A stretch of DNA of 21,168 nucleotides from positions 1 to 21,168 of IMG/VR virus record IMGVR_UViG_3300036791_000102. One strand, 5' to 3'. The notes beneath the pieces were generated by a model. It searched no databases. It worked only from the letters and a program-made list of their open reading frames with translations, and had not been told where the DNA came from. Origin of the DNA: a virus. Position numbers and translations under genes: made by a program. Below are positions 4,917-18,307 of this stretch, piece after piece (position 1 is the first letter of the stretch; every line of letters begins with the position of its first letter).

Positions 4917-5843
4917 TCACGTAAACTCCCAGTCCACTTTACCCATTCCGTCTATATCTAGAAGTGCTGCCAATGCCGGAGACAAGTCTATCCCGGCATT
5001 ATTGGTTTCCCGACCAGTCATATCAGTGCCAGACTCTGCCTGTGGTCGAGTCCCCTTGACCCAATATGGGTCATCTGTATTCCAAGGCCCAACGTCCCAG
5101 ATCTCTGCCACTGCCTCTTTACCAGATACCCGGTTGTAGACTTTTACTTCAGGTCTATCATCCATTTCAAATCTATCTGGCAAAGCCACATAGAGGTCTG
5201 TATCGTTCAGCACCTTATCTTCATCATAAGCACTGACGTTATAATCAGCTTCACCACCAAACATGCTCGCAACAATATTCATCTGATTAGCCGGGAGGGG
5301 ATTAGGATTCTTGATTTGTATTTCAGGATCAGTAGGACGTGCTACACCGGCAATCGCTCGACAGATTGCGTGAAATTTTGTCTTGTATGCATTCGCATCT
5401 GCAGAGCTATCGACGAAGCATACTTCTATTAAAATAGCTGGCCCTGAGGTATTATTAAGGAAATACAGATCAGTACGTTTCTTAGCACCCCGGTCAGGCA
5501 ACCCTGTCGTTTTCGCAATTGCTTGCGAGACGTCCGCCGCGATGTCTTTTTGGGAGACATATAGGACTTCAGTTCCCATTGGTTTGTTAGTCGTTTGATA
5601 GGCATTAAAATGAACACTAACATCGAGATCACGTACTTGTGAGTTATGATAATTTACAATCGTTTCTAGGTTTTCACTTTGTGTGGTTGAGGTGTTATCA
5701 TGAAATGTGTACACGTCAATGCCAAGCAGATTTAGATCCTTTGCCAGTTGCTCAACTACATTGCGAGCCTCGTCTACCTCATCGAGGTAGCCACTGGCAC
5801 CACGGACAAGTTCACCGTGCCCTGAGCTAATGACCACTTGCAT
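4917..5843 (-). CDS. Endolysin: N-acetylmuramoyl-L-alanine amidase fused to a double-psi beta-barrel domain
   Basis: Codes for 308 aa. Residues 1-168 are an Amidase_3-type zinc amidase: H9 in SSGHG, E25 in DEVDEARN, H78 in SVHFNA and E140 in LIEVCF are the expected zinc ligands and catalytic glutamate. It cuts the amide bond between N-acetylmuramic acid and L-alanine in peptidoglycan. Residues 188-307 resemble an RlpA/expansin-like double-psi beta-barrel: AEIWDVGPWNTDDPYW (246-261) followed by AGIDLSPALAALL (283-295) and a final VDWEF. A usual phage amidase is about 150-250 aa, so this is a two-domain enzyme. There is no signal peptide, so it needs the holin next door. GGAG (spacing 8) supports the start, which lies within the last codons of the preceding gene. 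Confidence 0.87.
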   Translation of the reverse strand: MQVVISSGHGELVRGASGYLDEVDEARNVVEQLAKDLNLLGIDVYTFHDNTSTTQSENLETIVNYHNSQVRDLDVSVHFNAYQTTNKPMGTEVLYVSQKDIAADVSQAIAKTTGLPDRGAKKRTDLYFLNNTSGPAILIEVCFVDSSADANAYKTKFHAICRAIAGVARPTDPEIQIKNPNPLPANQMNIVASMFGGEADYNVSAYDEDKVLNDTDLYVALPDRFEMDDRPEVKVYNRVSGKEAVAEIWDVGPWNTDDPYWVKGTRPQAESGTDMTGRETNNAGIDLSPALAALLDIDGMGKVDWEFT

Positions 5844-6020: not shown

Positions 6021-6293
6021 TTACTCGGTCGCCTTCTTTGAATCTGGTGGTAATTGAGTTCCCCCAAGCTCTGCCTCAAACTCAGCAGTATTTGGTCTTG
6101 GCTTCAATTCTAGAGGAAGAGGTTCATCTTCTGGTACAGGCTCTGGCTTATTGCCTGCTGCGAGCCATGCTTGATACATTCTCCATTCCTTGTTTGTATC
6201 ATCACGAGGAATGAACATGGCAACAGAATCATCACCCGCTTGTTGAGCTCTAACCATATCTGGGTTATGGGTAAGTCTGTAGATAATCTTCAT
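6021..6293 (-). CDS. Fibre-linked small protein, tail fibre assembly-like
   Basis: Codes for 90 aa from ATG 6293, 2 nt after the fibre stop. An in-frame upstream start at 6335 would overlap the fibre gene and adds residues unlike the family. The segment DDTNKEWRMYQAWLAAGNKPEPVPED (shown here as EWRMYQAWLAAGN, residues 36-48, plus PEP) has the EW..Y.aWlaaGN.P.P pattern common in small proteins encoded just after phage tail fibres, some of which act as fibre chaperones. The C-terminal half is acidic and Pro-rich and probably disordered. The ribosome site is weak, suggesting coupling to the fibre gene. Likely helps fold or attach the adjacent fibre, or is a minor tail component. The family match is from pattern only. 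Confidence 0.68.
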   Translation of the reverse strand: MKIIYRLTHNPDMVRAQQAGDDSVAMFIPRDDTNKEWRMYQAWLAAGNKPEPVPEDEPLPLELKPRPNTAEFEAELGGTQLPPDSKKATE

Positions 6294-6295
6294 GA

Positions 6296-7486
6296 TTAGA
6301 ATTCCGCACTTGCGTTGTAGCTCCATCCATACCATCCAAAACCAGGAGCAGGAGCAGTTTTATAGACTTGTATTCCATAAGCAGTAACTTGATTAATTGC
6401 AGCAGCCCCCGCAGGAAATCCAGAGTTTGCTATGTCTATCATATTAATAGTAGGAGGTATACGCATGGGAGAATAAAATTTTTCAGAATGATAAGCATTA
6501 GATCCAGCAACGAAAGATCCTGACCATATGTTAACACCTGATCCAATTTGATAATATCTTTTAACAAAGTTTTGGTCTGTCGTATACGATCTATCCTCAA
6601 ATGGTGGCGGATTATAACAAATTCCTACCGGAAGACCAGGAGTTGCCCGTACATCTGCCTGTACTACATCAATAAAGTAACTGGGATTAGCAATGGGTGG
6701 AAGCACGAAACTAATATATATTCCTTGCTTGACTTGAGTTGGAGCATTGAATGTATACCCAATTCTTGTCCAAGTTCCTACTGGACAAGGTTGAAATAAT
6801 GCGCCATTAACAAAGATCGTAGCTGAAGACCAATTATCTGTCGCATTAGCATATGCAATATTCACACTCGGTGTGAAAGTGGCACCCGTACCATTATATA
6901 TCGCTATTGAAACAGTGGCATTCTGACCACTAAGTATCGCCACAGCTAGACTTTCCATAAACTGATAGACAGAAAGTGAAGTATTTCCTGCTACACCTTG
7001 CAGGAGCATTGCGAGATACGCACCGATACCAGTAGGTGGAGCCGTTGTGTATGTTACAGGAAATGCTGAACCAGTAGAAGAAACATACCATCCATCAGCC
7101 GTGATTACACCACCACCATTTGGAGCAGTAATGGAAGATCCACGTTGCCAAGATTCAAATTTAGGATTACGGAACTTGTTAACAAATCCTCCAAACTGCC
7201 AATTCGCATTTGGACTAACAGGGATCCATTGCGCTGGATTGAACGTTCCAGCGGCTATGGCTGTCTTAGCAACATACTGTTGACCCTGAAAATTGGTAGG
7301 TTGACCCGCACTATAGCTCGTAGCATTAGAAAAGAATGGGACACCTATTAAATCTTGAGCTACGTTGCTCGAATCAAACCCTCCAAATTGCTTATCCCCA
7401 AAATTGAAATACGGAACTCCATATGTCTGCCCTGATGGGCGACTACCGGGTGTAATCGATCGTAGCAGTTTAATGATACTGGCCAT
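6296..7486 (-). CDS. Tail fibre/receptor-binding protein with carbohydrate-binding-like region
   Basis: Codes for 396 aa. After a short basic N-terminus, residues 57-88 (SYSAGQ, then FQGQQYVAK, NPAQWIPV) resemble a CBM5/12-like carbohydrate-binding motif. Residues 105-140 contain NPKFESWQRGSS and ITADGWYV, the N..F..WQRG...aDgW signature of jelly-roll modules in many phage fibres. The remainder (140-396) is beta-rich, with few charged residues and many Gly, Ser, Asn, Tyr and Trp, as expected of an exposed receptor-binding part. AGGAA lies 8 nt before the ATG, which overlaps the previous stop by 1 nt (TGATG). It probably binds the host surface at the tip of the tail; the receptor is unknown. 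Confidence 0.8.
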   Translation of the reverse strand: MASIIKLLRSITPGSRPSGQTYGVPYFNFGDKQFGGFDSSNVAQDLIGVPFFSNATSYSAGQPTNFQGQQYVAKTAIAAGTFNPAQWIPVSPNANWQFGGFVNKFRNPKFESWQRGSSITAPNGGGVITADGWYVSSTGSAFPVTYTTAPPTGIGAYLAMLLQGVAGNTSLSVYQFMESLAVAILSGQNATVSIAIYNGTGATFTPSVNIAYANATDNWSSATIFVNGALFQPCPVGTWTRIGYTFNAPTQVKQGIYISFVLPPIANPSYFIDVVQADVRATPGLPVGICYNPPPFEDRSYTTDQNFVKRYYQIGSGVNIWSGSFVAGSNAYHSEKFYSPMRIPPTINMIDIANSGFPAGAAAINQVTAYGIQVYKTAPAPGFGWYGWSYNASAEF

Positions 7487-8241
7487 CAGTAAGTTCCTGC
7501 ATCAGTAGAAATAGTCACCCATGCCGCATTGTTTCGTCCATAGGTATTGCCATCAGAAGGTGCATCTGGAAAAGTGAATCCAGCAGCATGAGCATCCACG
7601 TACTGTTTCGTTGCGGCTTGAAGCAGAGCTGTAGGGTCGGCATTCAACGTCAATGCACCTGTTAACGTCCCACCGGCTAGTGGAAGGTAATTTGCTAACG
7701 GGACATTTCCGACAGCGGTATCAACATATAGCTTTGTCGCAGCATGAAGATTAACAGTAGGGGCACCAGACAAGGTCAATAGACCCGTCAACGTCCCACC
7801 AACCAACGGCAGATAAAGAGCAGCTTTGTTATCTACATAATTTTTGGTCGCTGCTCCAGCCGCCACTGCCGGGTCGCCTGACAAAATCAGGAGACCTGTC
7901 ATAGTCCCACCGGCTAAAGGAATCTTCGTATCTGCATACTGCTTGGGTACAGAATCAAGTGGATTAACCGGGTTTCCTGACAAGGTCAGTATACCAGTCA
8001 TAGTCCCGCCAGATAGATTCAAATAATTAGCAGGAATTATTTGTGATCCATTGGCATAGATCGCCGCAGCATTTATCGTTCCTGGCCCCTCATTCCCTCC
8101 TGTAGGACTACCAACGACAATACCACCGGAATATTGTAGATACCCGGTATATTGAATCCATGGCGTCGGAGGCGATAGTGGTCCACCGGCTCCTGAACCC
8201 AGAACAGCTTCTCTAGGAGTTGCTTCGGGAAGTTCAGTCAT
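7486..8241 (-). CDS. Repeat-containing tail fibre protein
   Basis: Codes for 251 aa from ATG 8241, which overlaps the previous stop as ATGA and lies 7 nt from GGTGA; GTG 8247 is an alternative but is too close to that site. Four repeats of the form LsGGT(M/L)TG.L.L.gdP....aATK.YVD occur at about residues 78-107, 111-138, 148-174 and 190-216. This is the well-known phage fibre repeat that builds elongated trimeric shafts. Residues 226-246 (DAPSDGNTYGRNNAAWV) form a common fibre C-terminal motif. The N-terminal 70 residues are Gly/Pro-rich and probably attach to the baseplate or to another fibre. It sits between a small tail module and the second fibre, so it may form the shaft that carries the 396-aa protein. 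Confidence 0.85.
   Translation of the reverse strand: MTELPEATPREAVLGSGAGGPLSPPTPWIQYTGYLQYSGGIVVGSPTGGNEGPGTINAAAIYANGSQIIPANYLNLSGGTMTGILTLSGNPVNPLDSVPKQYADTKIPLAGGTMTGLLILSGDPAVAAGAATKNYVDNKAALYLPLVGGTLTGLLTLSGAPTVNLHAATKLYVDTAVGNVPLANYLPLAGGTLTGALTLNADPTALLQAATKQYVDAHAAGFTFPDAPSDGNTYGRNNAAWVTISTDAGTY
7661..8010 (-). repeat. Four degenerate DNA repeats coding for fibre shaft units
   Basis: On the plus strand, GTTAACGTCCCACC (7661), GTCAACGTCCCACC (7787), GTCATAGTCCCACC (7898) and GTCATAGTCCCGCC (7997) recur at spacings of 126, 111 and 99 nt, all multiples of three. They encode the GGT(M/L)TG part of each fibre repeat. In-frame spacing means recombination between copies would change fibre length without breaking the frame. 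Confidence 0.75.
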
Positions 8242-8546
8242 GGCCACATCACCGCCGTGAATTTGTGGTTAGGGCTAAGAGAACAGACACTAACAGGAGT
8301 TGTTGTTTGTGGAATAATTGTATAAGATTGACCCGGCTGGAGAGCTATTGTCGTGCCATTCGCATTAGTAATGGCATTTCCAACCTGATTCACAAACAAC
8401 ACTTCTGCAGTCGCAAGTCCCTGATCCGCTGGCAGCAGAGGATTAACAACATATCCCCCACTCTGGTTAGCAGATATTGCGTTGACAGGAATGGCGGGAG
8501 TAGCTCCGGTCTGCGTCGTAAGTCCAGCAACTGGAGTCGTAGCCAT
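8238..8546 (-). CDS. Small tail protein: stand-alone copy of the baseplate protein N-terminal module
   Basis: Codes for 102 aa. AAGGAG lies 8 nt before the ATG. Residues 30-99 align with residues 33-100 of the 420-aa baseplate protein encoded at 10011-11273. Shared positions include GG, VNPL, DQGL, VN, NGT, PGQS and HKFTA (for example NPLLPADQGL against NPLRPEDQGL). The module is beta-rich and ends just after HKFTA. Residues 1-29 are low-complexity Ala/Thr/Pro. As an independent protein between the spike and fibre genes, it may be a connector that joins fibres to the baseplate, using the same fold as the wedge protein; this is inference. Its stop overlaps the next ATG (ATGA). Confidence 0.75.
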   Translation of the reverse strand: MATTPVAGLTTQTGATPAIPVNAISANQSGGYVVNPLLPADQGLATAEVLFVNQVGNAITNANGTTIALQPGQSYTIIPQTTTPVSVCSLSPNHKFTAVMWP

Positions 8547-8558
8547 TGTTCATACTCC

Positions 8559-10001
8559 TTATGCAGTCCAACCAGGAGGAGTAACGATACCGGGTTGTGT
8601 ACCTGGGAAGCCCGTTGTAACTCCAGTTTCGAAGTTGATACCACCGCCTGCACTGGCGCGGTATTGAGGACAATTTGGTGTGATTCCTATGAATGTGCAG
8701 GCATTGTTATAGAAGACTATATTTCCAGCACCGGCGACATATGCCGTTGAAGTCGTGATTGTGCCACTAATGATATTAAAGGTAAGAGTTGTAGTGGCGA
8801 CAGCATCAGTATAAGCAAAGAGCATTGAGCCGCCATCGTATACTCCAAAAAGAACTGGTGAGGAAACAGCACCAGTATACGAACAATTTCCCCACAATGA
8901 TACATGGGCAGCAGTATAAGAACCGATTGGAGAAGCTACACCAGAAGTTGGAGCTGTAAAATTACAAGTCGTTACACTTAGATTACCTCCTCCAGAAGCA
9001 GCGGCGTTTTCATAGTACGATTGAAATGTCATACCTGCAACAGCCATCACAGCAGTTCCACCAGATTGGATACCGCGAGCAGGAGAAGCATAGGCTGATG
9101 GATAACTACTCTGAACAACACTCGTTGCATTAATGACAACGTTACCTGGTGAAGTGGTATTTCCAATAATGCTCCATGAAGCGATATAGTTGGTATTGTC
9201 ACCAATACCATCTATGTATGTACCATCAGCAACACGAATTGTGATGCCAGTTTGTGATATATATCGTTGTTTTATTCTATTAATAGCGCCAGATGGAGTC
9301 GCAAAGGCTCCGGTCGGTGTATTCGCAAATCCAGAATTATTATCATTCCCATCTGTTCGAACATAGAACACAGTTTGTGGGGGCACTGATGGAATCGGTG
9401 GAATGGTTGAAGTAAAGTTCACCCCATTGTACATGAATAGATAATTTTCACCGGCGGCTAGATTGCCGCCAACCATGGCAGAACCATCAGTTCGTGTAGC
9501 TGCAATTCCAGCATTACCATTGAATTGTAATTGAACAGGACCGGGGTTTTGATTTTTAACCCAGATATCGAAAATCATTCCAACAGCAAGGCTTGCTGGA
9601 ACAGGGTTCGTGGCGCAAATAATCGTACCTGGAGTCGTTGAAGTATCTGTACCAACATAAACGATTGAAGTATTAGCAGGACCAGTTCCTGCCTGAACAA
9701 ACGCAGCCAACGTTCCTGCTGTGACTAGGTTAGCAAAAATATCTCCGGCATTCCAAGCTCTCGCAACAGTTCCTTCTTGCGCGCGGACAATCGTTGCAAC
9801 GTCACCAGCCATAGCTGTGACATGAACAATTTCATTTATTGTCTTTGTTCCTTGATCATAAAAGGTTGCGACGTAATAATTTCCTCCTGTTGGATTAGGA
9901 AATAAGACTCCTGTGCCCGCAGCAAGTTGAACACTTGTGCTCGCTGCCGTGATGCTGCCCGACACAGTGGTAGAGGCGTTATTGCTCCAGAGAATCGTCA
10001 T
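8559..10001 (-). CDS. Tail spike with N-terminal attachment domain and beta-helix-like body
   Basis: Codes for 480 aa. Residues 1-105 resemble a common fibre N-terminal domain (SVQLAAGTGVLFPNP, then IVRAQEGTVARAWNAGD), expected to dock on the baseplate. Residues 106-205 form a second beta-rich module (LQFNGNAGIAA, NYLFMYNG). Residues 212-245 contain FYVRTDGNDNNSG and TGAFATPSGAINRI, the usual opening of right-handed parallel beta-helix spikes, and the Ser/Thr/Asn-rich repeats to about 440 fit such a helix. No catalytic residues for a depolymerase can be named from the sequence. AGGGCGGA supports the start. Likely recognises or modifies a surface polysaccharide. Confidence 0.82.
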   Translation of the reverse strand: MTILWSNNASTTVSGSITAASTSVQLAAGTGVLFPNPTGGNYYVATFYDQGTKTINEIVHVTAMAGDVATIVRAQEGTVARAWNAGDIFANLVTAGTLAAFVQAGTGPANTSIVYVGTDTSTTPGTIICATNPVPASLAVGMIFDIWVKNQNPGPVQLQFNGNAGIAATRTDGSAMVGGNLAAGENYLFMYNGVNFTSTIPPIPSVPPQTVFYVRTDGNDNNSGFANTPTGAFATPSGAINRIKQRYISQTGITIRVADGTYIDGIGDNTNYIASWSIIGNTTSPGNVVINATSVVQSSYPSAYASPARGIQSGGTAVMAVAGMTFQSYYENAAASGGGNLSVTTCNFTAPTSGVASPIGSYTAAHVSLWGNCSYTGAVSSPVLFGVYDGGSMLFAYTDAVATTTLTFNIISGTITTSTAYVAGAGNIVFYNNACTFIGITPNCPQYRASAGGGINFETGVTTGFPGTQPGIVTPPGWTA

Positions 10002-10010
10002 TTTTCCGCC

Positions 10011-11273
10011 CTATCCAATATTACAAGTGAAGTTAAACTGGTACGGAACTTCCAGTACCCCAGAGTCCAACGCTTCTTTGAATATCGCCATATACGGAAG
10101 TGGTGGATATGGAACATAAGTTGTTTCCAGATCATTTAATGTAATTGAAGCAACTCCTATATCCCATGGTGGAGTTTTAGCGGTTGCTGGCTCAAACCCA
10201 TTACATCCAAAGGCATTGAGTAATGCTCCACCAGTAACCTTCCTATGTCCTAAAACAAACCGAATTGTTACATTTTGATCTACACCTATACTCAGGCTGA
10301 TTTGTTCTGTGTCTGCGATCGATTCATCACCTATACCGGGTGGGGATACCTCAATGGGTGTTCCATTTACACCATAAAGGAATCGCCAAATACGACGTTT
10401 CATCCAACGAAGACTAAAGTAATTACCGTCTCCCTTGAACAAATGCCATGTGAGAATACGACGGTATAAGTCATCATCAGTTAGGACAATATCACCAATA
10501 CTAAGGAACTGTAGTTCATTTAAACCAAACTTAATAGACGTGCTTGCAGGAGCTATATCCCATATCGGGAATAACCAATTTGGACCCCACGTATTGAGAG
10601 GACCCATCAGCACCGGCCGACCAGAATTCAGGGCCGGACGGGCCATTCCATATAAACCGGATCCCACCCAATCAAGTAACTTGCTTTCAACGAGTGAAGG
10701 TTGACCAGTATAAATGGGCAGGTTCAAAGCATTGAATGTATCAACATAATCATCTTGGCAGTCATTTTGTGCTTCAACAAATCCTTGCATATCGTCATCA
10801 TCACTATACTCTTGGTATAGGTATGAAGGAATAGTCTGCGTTAAGCCAGTGACTCCAACAGGTGGGAATGGCTGGCCTCCATATACAATCCCACCAATGA
10901 CAACTCCACCGGGACCTCCCGGTATTCCAGGAACACTCTCAGGAGGAAATGGAACAGTATAATTTGAAGAAAAGAATGCAGTAAACTTGTGACCAGAAGT
11001 TACTGCCGTGACCCAAACATTTGTTTCTGGTGGAACAAGAAAAGATTGCCCGGGGACTACTTCAACTGTTCCATTGACTGCGGCAGTCGCAGCAGATCCT
11101 AAGAGGTTAACCCAGAGTGATTCAGATACCGGCAACCCTTGGTCTTCAGGCCTGAGTGGGTTAACAATCAACCCACCCTTCGTGCCCATTGTAGTATCAG
11201 CTATTTGAACCGATTGTCCACCGACGCCAACGACTGCCGTGAGTGCTGGTTTTAGTATGAACAGAGATGCCAT
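10011..11273 (-). CDS. Baseplate wedge/tail protein I candidate with duplicated N-terminal module
   Basis: Codes for 420 aa. Residues 33-100 are the beta module shared with the 102-aa protein at 8238-8546. A Gly/Pro/Val linker follows (110-145). Residues 150-212 (YLYQEYSDDDDMQGF, then NLPIYTG, LLDWVGSGLYGMARP) resemble the phage tail proteins encoded directly after the J-type wedge protein, which join the wedge to the fibres (gpI or DUF2612 type). The rest contains a helical part around WHLFKGDGNYFSLRWMKRRIWRF (residues about 290-315) and a beta-rich end. AGGGTG lies 5 nt before the start, which abuts the previous stop. Position between J and the spike supports a wedge-to-fibre adaptor role. 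Family assignment is tentative, structural role fairly sure. Confidence 0.7.
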   Translation of the reverse strand: MASLFILKPALTAVVGVGGQSVQIADTTMGTKGGLIVNPLRPEDQGLPVSESLWVNLLGSAATAAVNGTVEVVPGQSFLVPPETNVWVTAVTSGHKFTAFFSSNYTVPFPPESVPGIPGGPGGVVIGGIVYGGQPFPPVGVTGLTQTIPSYLYQEYSDDDDMQGFVEAQNDCQDDYVDTFNALNLPIYTGQPSLVESKLLDWVGSGLYGMARPALNSGRPVLMGPLNTWGPNWLFPIWDIAPASTSIKFGLNELQFLSIGDIVLTDDDLYRRILTWHLFKGDGNYFSLRWMKRRIWRFLYGVNGTPIEVSPPGIGDESIADTEQISLSIGVDQNVTIRFVLGHRKVTGGALLNAFGCNGFEPATAKTPPWDIGVASITLNDLETTYVPYPPLPYMAIFKEALDSGVLEVPYQFNFTCNIG

Positions 11274-12701
11274 TTACGCACCCTGAATTACTGAAACATT
11301 CGAAGTGTCAGTGTAGAAATAACTGTATCGATCTCCATAAATAACCTGAGTACCAGAAGCTGGAACTGTACCAACTCCACTGACTGAGATAACCCAATTA
11401 ATATCTATAATTAATTCTCCTGCCAGAACATTAACGACTGAATCAATAAACACTTGATTCAACACATTCAGATTTATGGGTGTTGTTCCAGCCGGTAAAC
11501 TATTGATGTAATCTATGATAGCTGGTGAAGCAGCTTGAGCAATAGCAGATGAGGATACATAGTTTGGAGAATCTGTAACCCAAGTCACTTGGATGTTTAC
11601 TATTTCCTGAGGTGGATTTACAAAGGGTATAGTGAAAGAATCAGGATAGTCAGACACAGAAACCAACTCATTGATAGGATTAGGTGTGACTACACCTCCA
11701 TATTGCCACGTACCATATTGTGTCCCATCTACAGGAATAGTGAAGGTTTTTAATCCCGTTACAGTAATAGGCCAAGGATAATTATTAATTAGAGGAACCC
11801 CAACATTTCCTGATATAACTTCAATATCACCTGTAGCTAGATTATGATTATCTGCCGTGGTGATTCTAATTGGATTTGTATTAGAAATACCGGCAATCCG
11901 AATAACCGCGCCAGTTAGACCGGGAGTATAGAAATGTGCGCTCCAGATTGCATAGGCAACTTGATATGGGTCACCACCACCAACGATGATTGTAAACGCT
12001 TCTAAATCTTCTTGCTCTTGTACAGAAACTAACCGATTCTGAACACCTGGAACATTCGCTACCAGTGTTTTAAGATAACGAGCCATGCCGGTCGATGCAG
12101 CCAATCCGGCCGTAAAACAGCGCTCCCTGTAGATACTGATGGGCTCACCAGACTGGGACGGAATACCAGTAACCGGATTATTTACAACCAATGAAACATT
12201 AGCCGGAACAGATGTAATCATCTGCACTACAGTATTCGCAGCAACCGGCCAAGCTCCATCCTGAGTTGCAAGAGCATAAATAGGCAAGGTATTCCCATCT
12301 ATACCACAGATACCACCAGTCTGACAAACGTATTGATAAGTTCCATCACCAACCACAAACCCCTGAGCAACGATATAACCGGGAGTACCGGTGAATACAA
12401 CAAAGACCGATGTATTTGTGATAGGTTGTGGATCTACACCATATAATATGCCGAGCTGATTAAGCAAGTATGGATTAGCTCCATACGGAGTAACTGAATT
12501 AACAAGATCAACCAAAAAACTATCACTAACAACCAGAGCATAGGTATCAGTGCTAGAGACATCTTCAATTAATGATCCTGGAAGATTGGCGGTATAGTCA
12601 GGATTACTGGCTGCGACCAATGTAATCAGTCGATTCCGCAAGTCTGATGGAGCTGCCGGTTGCAGTCCTTGCGCTGTCATTACAAGAGGAAGTGTTGCCA
12701 T
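11274..12701 (-). CDS. Baseplate J-like wedge protein with inserted beta domain
   Basis: Codes for 475 aa. The N-terminal half shows the Mu gp47/P2 gpJ pattern: LRNRLITLVAASNPDYT (21-37), LIEDVSSTDTYAL, PYGANPYLLNQLG (72-84), GYIVAQGFVVGDG (108-120), then GEPISIYRERCF and TGMARYLKTLVANVPGV (204-220). Residues 270-340 look inserted: IRITTADNHNLATGDIEVIS and WPITVTGLKTFTIPVDG match a small beta module common in phage baseplate and fibre proteins. The core resumes with the IQVTWV strand near 370 and ends beta-rich. This protein forms the wedge arms that change shape on infection in contractile tails. There is no clear ribosome site; the upstream hairpin lies in its place. Confidence 0.87.
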   Translation of the reverse strand: MATLPLVMTAQGLQPAAPSDLRNRLITLVAASNPDYTANLPGSLIEDVSSTDTYALVVSDSFLVDLVNSVTPYGANPYLLNQLGILYGVDPQPITNTSVFVVFTGTPGYIVAQGFVVGDGTYQYVCQTGGICGIDGNTLPIYALATQDGAWPVAANTVVQMITSVPANVSLVVNNPVTGIPSQSGEPISIYRERCFTAGLAASTGMARYLKTLVANVPGVQNRLVSVQEQEDLEAFTIIVGGGDPYQVAYAIWSAHFYTPGLTGAVIRIAGISNTNPIRITTADNHNLATGDIEVISGNVGVPLINNYPWPITVTGLKTFTIPVDGTQYGTWQYGGVVTPNPINELVSVSDYPDSFTIPFVNPPQEIVNIQVTWVTDSPNYVSSSAIAQAASPAIIDYINSLPAGTTPINLNVLNQVFIDSVVNVLAGELIIDINWVISVSGVGTVPASGTQVIYGDRYSYFYTDTSNVSVIQGA

Positions 12702-13096: not shown

Positions 13097-13953
13097 CCTA
13101 TCCGCCCTAATGCATTAATAACAGGACCCTTGACTGTTGTCAATTGGGCATATTGTCCTTCTGAACCATCACCTCCTACATAAATCTTATGACCGGTAGG
13201 TACTTTGATGGTAATCTTTTTACCTTTTTGATCTACAGTAATGACGTGATCTGTATCTTTACTTTGCATTACAGCCTTACCATCTTTATCAAAGCTGAAT
13301 TGTGTTTTATCATCATCTTGTTGCTGTTGTCCAGAGGTAGAACCACCTGTTCCACCACCTGTTCCACCAGATCCACCTGATGTATCAAGAGGAACTGCCT
13401 GACGTAACCTTGATTGCTGTGCCCTGAACGCTGTCGTAGTTCTAAAAGCCGTTAGGACATTTCCTAACCCAGACTGACCACCATTTTGAGATTGCTGCTG
13501 ATCTTGCTGTTGCTTCTTGTGTGGCCCAACGATCCAACCATTTGGACCACCCATATGAGTTAATTGATCTTGATCACGATCCGGGTTTTGCTTATGACTT
13601 ACCGGCTGAAATGATATTGCAGTCAAGTTACCGCGAGGGTAGAAATTCGTATTACCGCCAGCTTCACCAGTCACACCACCAAGATAATAATCACTAGGAG
13701 AAGCAAATCCTTTATCTCCTACTTGAGTAGGGTCCCTACCATACTGAGACATCGACTGCGGGATTCTAACAGTCGGGGGAGTAAACAATCCATTTTGGGT
13801 TTCGAACGCAACCGTAATAAAGTCTTTATCAACCTTGGTTACATGGCAAGGGATAGACTTGGTTTGTGATTCTTGTACCGTATTGGTCCTTTTCTGGGAC
13901 CATTGGTTCATCCGATACTGGAACGGATGCTTATGTGAGTCATAGCGGCCCAT
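13093..13953 (-). CDS. Central baseplate spike, Gp138/gpV-like
   Basis: Codes for 286 aa. Residues 32-120 resemble the Gp138 N-terminal OB-fold: IPCHVTKVDKDFITVAFE (34-51), then QVGDKGFASPSDYYLGGVTG (77-96) and NLTAISFQPVSHK. Residues 147-215 are a Gln/Gly/Ser-rich linker. Residues 216-262 carry short beta strands (SFDKDGKAVM, HVITVDQKGKKITIKVP, HKIYVGGDG) as in the trimeric beta-helix needle of gpV/gp138 proteins. The end, LTTVKGPVINALGRIG, probably forms the tip or cap. It pierces the outer membrane when the tail contracts. An excellent ribosome site (GAGGTGA, 7 nt) precedes the start, which overlaps the previous stop (TAATG). The Q/G linker is longer than usual. Confidence 0.85.
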   Translation of the reverse strand: MGRYDSHKHPFQYRMNQWSQKRTNTVQESQTKSIPCHVTKVDKDFITVAFETQNGLFTPPTVRIPQSMSQYGRDPTQVGDKGFASPSDYYLGGVTGEAGGNTNFYPRGNLTAISFQPVSHKQNPDRDQDQLTHMGGPNGWIVGPHKKQQQDQQQSQNGGQSGLGNVLTAFRTTTAFRAQQSRLRQAVPLDTSGGSGGTGGGTGGSTSGQQQQDDDKTQFSFDKDGKAVMQSKDTDHVITVDQKGKKITIKVPTGHKIYVGGDGSEGQYAQLTTVKGPVINALGRIG

Positions 13954-14477
13954 TATGGATTCACCTCGAATGAACCATTACGATAGACAAGGGTGGATGT
14001 TTGAAATATTCCTTCGATCATATTCATTAATCTACCTATAGTACCAAGAATATTAATTGCACCGGGGTCTGCATCTAATGAAAATGAAAATATAGTTGGA
14101 GTAACCTGTAATGTTCGCCATTTACCATTCAATACAGCAGGGTCGAAATTTTCAAGCGTGTAATCAACAATTGTGCCAGGAGGTGTCAACAATCCAGCCG
14201 CAGCTAATGGAATCGGCCATTGAGATGGGTCTACCATTTGCACTGTCATTACTCTTCGCAAATTATCATAAGTGGCTGATTGTACAGGACGTGAAGGTGG
14301 TGTCTGAATCAAAGGTACAGTTACAATCCATTGATTATCGAATCCATAGATATTCACATAATAGCGTTGGGCAGAAACATTCCAAGTAATTATAACATCA
14401 AAATCATCTCCATCAAAATTCACCCTAAATTTAGGTGGAAATAAATTAGAAGGTAGGAATGGGATGACTGAGGTCAT
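13953..14477 (-). CDS. Baseplate plug-like tail protein
   Basis: Codes for 174 aa. Residues 16-58 (FRVNFDGDDFDVIITWN, QRYYVNIYGFDNQWIVTVPLI) have the pattern y.v.w N..a.rwy..iyd...w...vpl, seen in short plug proteins of simple myovirus baseplates (Pam3 gp18-like). Residues 66-170 form a further beta-rich part with GKWRTLQVTPTIFSFSLD. The family proteins are often near 100-120 aa, so this has an extra C-terminal part. It lies between the Dit-like and spike genes, consistent with a piece that seals the hub around the spike. The start overlaps the previous stop as ATGA, with no separate ribosome site. The family call is tentative; a structural tail role is well supported by position. Confidence 0.6.
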   Translation of the reverse strand: MTSVIPFLPSNLFPPKFRVNFDGDDFDVIITWNVSAQRYYVNIYGFDNQWIVTVPLIQTPPSRPVQSATYDNLRRVMTVQMVDPSQWPIPLAAAGLLTPPGTIVDYTLENFDPAVLNGKWRTLQVTPTIFSFSLDADPGAINILGTIGRLMNMIEGIFQTSTLVYRNGSFEVNP

Positions 14478-16893: not shown

Positions 16894-18307
16894 ATCTTCG
16901 TACCATACGCTGCGGTTGTGGGAATCCTCCCGGAGGAGGTCTTATCAATATATCTGTCTGCGTCTGTGGTGGTGGTGGTGGTGGTGAAGGTGATTCTGGT
17001 GGCAGTTGAGCAGCAACTGAACCCTGAGTAACTGCTTCTAGATTAGTACTCCAACTCGCACCATCCGGGTTCCGAAGATCACCTATATGCAAAACCTTCA
17101 TTATCTGATAAGATCCTGGAAGTGAAATATGGGACCTTTGATCAGATGCACCAGCTTCCATAGGTAACTGAGAACCCTCACCAGAAAAATTAACGACGGT
17201 GTCTGGTAATGTGATAAACATCCCCGGCTTTAATCCACCACGCAACACAATCTTAACGCTAATAGTTACCGGATCTAACCATGTAGGCTGACCTATCAAG
17301 TCCTTATAATCAATTACAGCATTCCCAAGAGATGTAGATGTATCCCATACATCAAGAACATGGCCGACAGAAGTTATATGGATCCCAGGATATTTTTTAA
17401 CTCCTAATATTGATTGGCTAAGTTTGTTGATGTACCCGGTATATTGTTCTAAAGACTGATACATCCCCGCATCTTGATAAGCCAATTTCAATGCAGATGA
17501 AATAGCTACATTGACATTTGCTTTAGGAAATGCTTTAGACAATGTCTCTTGAATTGCACCAGACAGAGGCATATTCGGCATTAAATTGTGGATAATATTC
17601 AATGGTGCTGATAGAGGGTTTGCATTGCCGCCACCAAGAAATGAACTAAAAACATTTCCAAATGTTGATGTCGCCGGTCCAATGTCAGCATCGGAAGTAA
17701 TCATACCTCCTATCATTTGTGCAATAGCTCCAGGATCCATTCCTAAGGGAGCAAAGCCTCTAGTACCTACTGATGGGCGACCAAGTGGAAATGTTCTACG
17801 ATCTATAGAACGAAATCCAGTACGGTTAACTTGGGGAGATGCACTACCTCCACCACTGCCACTACTTCCTTCACTACCGCCACCTGAAGAATCACCTACT
17901 GGTCCAGTTGCTGATCCTACAGAGGCCGGAGCAAGTAAGAATCCGATAGAAGTTTCATTCCCTATCCAATTTCCCCAAGCCTTTAGAATCGTGGTTTCCA
18001 TTAATAGCTTTGGTCTTTGAGATTGAAAAGTAGCCAATGGCAATCCTGCTGACATACCTCCATTAATAATCATCGGATGACCAACAAGCTGATTTGATGC
18101 TTTAATTTGATCCCAGCTCACTCCATATACGATTAGAGTACTATTTTCGGTAGGTGTCTTTGCATCCAGTGCTGTGAGTTGAAATTCAACCTGTTGTGCA
18201 TTAGGATCATGGTATCCACCAAATGTAGTTCCCCACTGTGCCCCGTTATCATATCTAGCCGGGAATACAGCAGGAGCGTCTGTTATTGCTACATTGATGT
18301 ATCTCAT
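16886..18307 (-). CDS. Baseplate hub protein
   Basis: Codes for 473 aa. Residues 57-127 (LIVYGVSWDQIKASNQLVG, MIINGGMSAGLPLA, AWGNWIGNETSIGFLLAP) and 333-368 (DYKDLIGQPTWLDPVTISV, LRGGLKPGMFITLP) match a hub family of simple myoviruses, analogous to gpD/gp27, which grips the spike. The two halves are separated by a Gly/Ser-rich linker (131-160) and a mostly helical part (190-310). The C-terminus (436-467) is Pro-rich with a run of six prolines. The start overlaps the previous stop as ATGA. It lies between the two tape-measure-like genes, a strange position, because the hub usually follows a single tape-measure gene. The hub role is inferred from sequence pattern and location. Confidence 0.72.
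   Translation of the reverse strand: MRYINVAITDAPAVFPARYDNGAQWGTTFGGYHDPNAQQVEFQLTALDAKTPTENSTLIVYGVSWDQIKASNQLVGHPMIINGGMSAGLPLATFQSQRPKLLMETTILKAWGNWIGNETSIGFLLAPASVGSATGPVGDSSGGGSEGSSGSGGGSASPQVNRTGFRSIDRRTFPLGRPSVGTRGFAPLGMDPGAIAQMIGGMITSDADIGPATSTFGNVFSSFLGGGNANPLSAPLNIIHNLMPNMPLSGAIQETLSKAFPKANVNVAISSALKLAYQDAGMYQSLEQYTGYINKLSQSILGVKKYPGIHITSVGHVLDVWDTSTSLGNAVIDYKDLIGQPTWLDPVTISVKIVLRGGLKPGMFITLPDTVVNFSGEGSQLPMEAGASDQRSHISLPGSYQIMKVLHIGDLRNPDGASWSTNLEAVTQGSVAAQLPPESPSPPPPPPQTQTDILIRPPPGGFPQPQRMVRRYG
16968..16985. repeat. GGT x6 trinucleotide run (six prolines in the hub)
   Basis: Six GGT units in a row on the plus strand encode PPPPPP near the hub C-terminus on the minus strand. Copy changes would keep the frame. 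Such a run is expected to need elongation factor P for smooth translation. Confidence 0.8.

Follow-up and report, generated by a model that had tools for sequence, protein, structure and literature searches.

In a group of uncultivated contractile-tailed phages, a module of about 100 residues is encoded both as a free-standing protein and as an N-terminal add-on joined by a linker to a baseplate wedge protein, and the two forms co-occur without exception in the relatives sampled. We analyzed a stretch of 21,168 nucleotides (hereafter the window), which was assigned by its ORFs and profile annotation to such a phage and carries a contractile-tail cluster on the minus strand. Three parts make up the 420-aa wedge protein (10011-11273, minus strand): the fused module copy (residues 4-105; 10959-11264), delimited by homology to the free protein and by predicted structure, a Gly/Pro-rich linker (residues 106-144; 10842-10958), and a body (residues 145-420; 10011-10841). 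The gene for a baseplate J-like wedge protein (11274-12701; phrog_6, E = 2.2e-20) lies directly upstream. On the other side follow, on the same strand, the genes for fibre A (480 aa; 8559-10001), the free-standing module (102 aa; 8238-8546), and fibre B (253 aa; 7486-8247), and a further fibre gene (6296-7486). Tape-measure-like and baseplate proteins and an amidase endolysin are also encoded in the minus-strand tail cluster, which contains a small ORF as well.

The two ORFs lie where the initial annotation placed them, and the homology that it observed between the free protein and the wedge N-terminus is confirmed and larger than first reported. BLASTP with compositional adjustment aligned residues 29-100 of the free protein with residues 32-101 of the wedge protein at 46% identity (E = 6e-17), and a search of the window with the free protein returned only itself and the wedge protein (E = 9.5e-17). 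The local alignment score was 159, compared with a mean of 35 and a maximum of 70 in 5000 shuffles. Since this corresponds to z = 21 and the match also survives compositional adjustment, chance and low complexity are ruled out as its source. The limits first given (residues 30-99 against 33-100) were too narrow, because, with relatives added, almost all of the free protein is homologous to wedge residues from about 4 to 103.

Both segments were then compared as predicted structures, and free/fused agreement was judged by the order of elements and the type of PDB match. The free-protein model (AlphaFold2 with 37 natural relatives; pLDDT 95.5) contains the elements E21-24, E30-34, H39-42, E50-53, E66-69, E74-76, E85-88, and E97-101, and the wedge-module model (pLDDT 90-96 across residues 11-100) contains E22-25, E33-37, H42-45, E53-56, E69-72, E77-80, E86-90, and E98-105. 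The element order, the spacing, the short helix, and the type of PDB match agree, which together with the homology upholds the earlier view of one fold existing both fused and free. The full wedge model retrieved the same fold class as the free module in a structure search; its mean pLDDT is 67, with residues ~112-163 below 50 and the remainder mixed.

The top solved-structure matches of the module were cupins and a designed double-stranded beta-helix (PDB 2fqp, 6e5c, 6b8w), with modest TM scores of about 0.45-0.53 and Foldseek E values of at least 0.026. A profile of the free copies matched the designed barrel 6e5c (E = 1.6e-4), and the best match in a viral model library was a 162-aa uncharacterized phage protein (TM 0.74). 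Based on these solved-structure, profile, and viral-model matches, the predicted fold of the module is a small jelly-roll or double-stranded beta-helix (cupin-like) barrel. In contrast to cupins with their metal-binding His/Glu set, the 37 free copies have one near-invariant His (H94) and no HxH motif, and the lack of a conserved metal-binding set rules out an enzymatic cupin. Pfam cupin matches of the module fell below the cutoff. No Ig-like Pfam family was matched among the 37 module members, Pfam-type profile searches matched no carbohydrate-binding family, and no curated family names a function for the module.

The wedge body also occurs without the module. Residues 145-418 match phrog_8212 (E = 1.3e-38), and in homologues from cultured phages (Klebsiella phage Chronis and phages of Yersinia, Pantoea, Shewanella, and others) the alignment to the window protein begins no earlier than residue ~134-144. 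Chronis gp21 resembles the window protein in its homologous body and in the position of its gene directly after that of a J-like protein, but it has only 234 aa, corresponds to the window protein from about residue 145 onward, and lacks the module and the linker; the Chronis genome carries no module copy, free or fused. No curated wedge model of Pfam or NCBIfam matched the window protein or Chronis gp21. In the AlphaFold models, the module is joined to the body by a poorly predicted Gly/Pro-rich linker of ~40-60 residues (pLDDT ~40 from residue 112 in the window protein). Since the cultured-phage homologues, Chronis included, have no module, the wedge works without it, and the module is an add-on and not a part of the wedge rim. 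The proposal of the initial annotation that the module builds the wedge rim is thus ruled out by the module-less wedges and the poorly predicted linker.

To survey the free and fused forms, viral contigs with at least one of three features (free form, wedge, N-terminus of fibre B) were gathered, and all their ORFs were profile-scanned. The wedge relatives were the best 80 of 463, those closest to the 420-aa protein, so rarer arrangements may be missed. Among the distinct wedges of this sample with at least 4 kb of downstream sequence, every module-bearing wedge (49/49) has a free copy 1.1-2.0 kb downstream, and 15 of the 16 wedges without a detected module have none. The exception, L058, has a wedge that is incomplete at the start of the stretch, and complete module-less wedges are never followed by a free copy (0/15). 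The Fisher p of 8e-14 for this co-occurrence overstates the independence of the cases, since the sequences are related. The pairing still holds where the identity of module-bearing wedge bodies falls to 38%, which shows that the pair has been kept over deep divergence. Shared ancestry and short physical linkage may account for part of the co-occurrence. Free-type copies are found without the wedge family in the stretch (L070, L074, L075, L076) and beside a module-less wedge (L077). Therefore, the dependence is one-sided: a fused copy is accompanied by a free copy, and a free copy can occur without a fused one.

A third module copy, found by whole-record search, is present in 10 of 22 relatives' records (G001-G004, G007-G010, G012, G015), and also in L022. 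It is known from relatives only, since the window ends before the corresponding region. Examples lie at 5006-5299 in G001 (L078) and at 17508-17798 in G002 (L079). The carrier is a phrog_6359 protein of ~430-480 aa whose gene is located just upstream of the sheath gene (phrog_205). In P0003, the module lies between residues ~52 and ~176, and alignment identifies Chronis gp10 as a homologue without it. Six relatives, several of them with records >70 kb, contain only the wedge and free copies. Since the third copy is encoded beside the sheath, the module is not restricted to the baseplate. Of the earlier idea that the module is used twice in one baseplate, the fused and free copies stand, and the limit to two does not, given the sheath-side copy and the phages with the free form only. 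Directly upstream of the sheath-side protein, some relatives have a long fibre-like gene (L078:3879-4802, L079:648-3296, L022:2-3535), which L214-L218 lack. A tie between the sheath-side copy and an adjoining fibre gene is not general, as such a gene is present in G001, G002, and L022 and not in G003, G010, G012, and G015.

In a tree of 139 copies, the ten sheath-side copies form one class and the free copies another, except for the very long branches of L076 and L077, and the wedge copies fall into three sets; the deep forks are unsure because few columns are available. The separation of the copy classes indicates that the copies are old and specialized, which rules out a recent tandem duplication. 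With weak support, the wedge-body tree requires module presence to have changed about four times.

The free gene had been placed among the fibre genes, and in the window and nearly all relatives it does lie between two of them: fibre A comes first, then the free module and fibre B, with neighbouring genes overlapping slightly or separated by short gaps. In the window, the stop codon of the free gene (TGA) and the in-frame start codon of fibre B (ATG) overlap as ATGA. The N-terminal domain of fibre A (residues 1-111), which is common to phage tail fibres, matches phrog_6427 (E = 3.1e-26) and also phrog_8469. The domain has a solved example in PDB 8jov_1 (putative tail fibre protein, 18 chains), which residues 3-106 match at E = 2.6e-9. 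Fibre B has an N-terminal segment conserved among relatives (GAGGPL..PTPW..GYLQY.GG.VVG.PTGGN.G.GTINA; 8038-8193). The fibre A domain is present in 41/49 module-bearing and 12/16 module-less cases. Since it occurs beside most module-less wedges, it needs no module, and a necessary adaptor for fibre A is ruled out. The fibre B segment, present in 32/49 module-bearing versus 1/16 module-less cases, tracks the module where fibre A does not, an association that lineage could explain. Fibre-B-like matches in L139-L143 and L145 were set aside, as they comprise a short Gly-rich motif only and no module or wedge occurs in the stretch. By eye, signal-peptide-like hydrophobic N-terminal stretches that end in AxA-type sites, which are odd for virion proteins, were seen in flanking fibres (L020, L021, L062, L066, L069, L072, L073, L076, L102) and in the free module itself in L070, L074, and L075.

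We tentatively consider the module to be an accessory virion component whose wedge-tethered and free copies act as a pair at the baseplate/fibre interface. The free protein would be produced alongside the fibres, become part of the virion, and be retained at the baseplate/fibre junction through the wedge-tethered copies. It would touch these copies either homotypically, barrel to barrel, or by way of a shared partner, for example the fibre B N-terminus. Around the fibre bases, the paired copies could form a ring or collar that is flexible, and the sheath-side copy may make a similar contact through the same surface or serve as plain virion decoration. As far as gene content can tell, a fibre-linking role is compatible with the strict fused/free co-occurrence and the fibre neighbourhood. 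Against pairing at the fibres, both the fibre A domain and the wedge body are found in the absence of the module, and the sheath-side copies occur with or without an adjoining fibre gene. The sheath-side copy and the free-only loci (L070, L074-L077) show that the fused/free pair is not the only use of the module. A more specific form of pairing seems improbable: the wedge copies, and in some phages the sheath-side copies, would act as a homotypic snap connector that captures free copies carrying or locking fibre B, so that two or more virion sites would depend on one small protein for fibre attachment.

A joint role is favoured by the strict co-retention, a general surface module by the sheath-side copy and the loci with free copies only. 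It is quite possible that each copy independently displays its barrel and binds cell-surface or environmental glycans weakly and multivalently, so that no mutual contact would be needed. Ig-like domains and carbohydrate-binding modules bind in this way in other phages. Such decoration or adhesion would suit the add-on architecture, with the module joined by a linker to the wedge and lying, in the sheath-side protein, as an insertion between two conserved parts, the patchy distribution of the sheath-side copy, and the module-less homologues that both host proteins have in cultured phages. The lactococcal 936 phages bear binding modules on several structural proteins, namely in neck, tail, and Dit proteins, and two of these modules bound host cells (PMC6669499). 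In those phages, however, neck decorations generally exclude others (PMC6669499), and retention of the fused and free copies together in 49 of 49 cases is unlike that of usual independent ornaments; neither a carbohydrate-binding nor an Ig family was matched by the module. We lean slightly towards the joint role.

Two other readings are unlikely. In the first, only the fused copies would be structural, and the free protein would either assist fibre assembly, as a factor or chaperone, or be exported; the translational overlap of the free gene with fibre B and the signal-peptide-like starts of the three free copies noted above could then be accommodated. However, the free protein has the same predicted fold as the structural domain, most free copies have no signal-like stretch, and, judged by position only, the usual place of a fibre chaperone downstream of the final fibre gene is taken by another small ORF (6021-6335). 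A shade less likely still is that the copies share only ancestry, an old duplication having left each copy structurally needed in its own place with no common partner. The separate classes in the tree and the roughly one third of residues that wedge and free copies have in common fit this history, which fails to explain why fused copies never occur without free ones and free copies do occur without fused ones.

The closest physical analogy is the garland of Agrobacterium phage 7-7-1, whose small protein gp014 surrounds the distal baseplate, touches short and long fibres, and is numbered next to the long tail fibre gp015 (PMC12796354). The available part of that report describes no fused copy, in contrast to the module, and the likeness is one of analogy only. 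No phage structure, the garland protein included, was matched by the module among PDB sequences. The closest modular analogy is the carbohydrate-binding modules of the 936 siphophages (PMC6669499), which are likewise small accessory modules on several structural proteins, the neck included; they differ in that their decorations rarely accompany a neck decoration, whereas the fused and free copies described here always co-occur. The distribution of the module suggests a reusable tail part present in two or three proteins of the tail region. One more modular tail domain is ordinary; the unbroken fused-plus-free arrangement in the sampled relatives and the reuse beside the sheath are less so. The analysis defines a compact, unnamed module reused by a group of uncultivated contractile-tailed phages, turns a vague idea of modular tails into a specific, testable fused/free pairing, and makes an accessory domain available for a large unexplored set of phages.

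Among isolate phages (INPHARED), tblastn gave no convincing match to four free copies, and Bacillus jumbo-phage matches at E~2 were discarded. A genome scan with the free form gave no match, and the diversity of the mixed profile A3 made it unsuitable for pattern scans. The match of an 854-aa ORF in G026 (E = 1.1e-5) was set aside, as it reads as a protease-like bacterial protein. Both window copies weakly match the second half only of phrog_22789, a family of 100-aa phage proteins (fused copy, E = 1e-5; free copy, E = 0.0061, or 1.9e-4 at single-record scale). The only cellular-genome contig found with both forms, L086, is binned as an uncultured Rhizobiales bacterium, which does not prove the host. 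A divergent 107-aa free copy occurs in a bog Gammaproteobacteria genome bin (L220, G025:C54:12000-24000; L103) in which the wedge homologue, L088, is without the module. Elsewhere in the window, residues 279-339 of the J-like protein, which lie within its wedge-family match, resemble E1_FCCH at a sub-threshold level (PF16190, E = 1.9e-6), and 13953-14477 weakly matches, below the cutoff, gp18 of cyanophage Pam3, a baseplate plug (PF22479, E = 0.0016).
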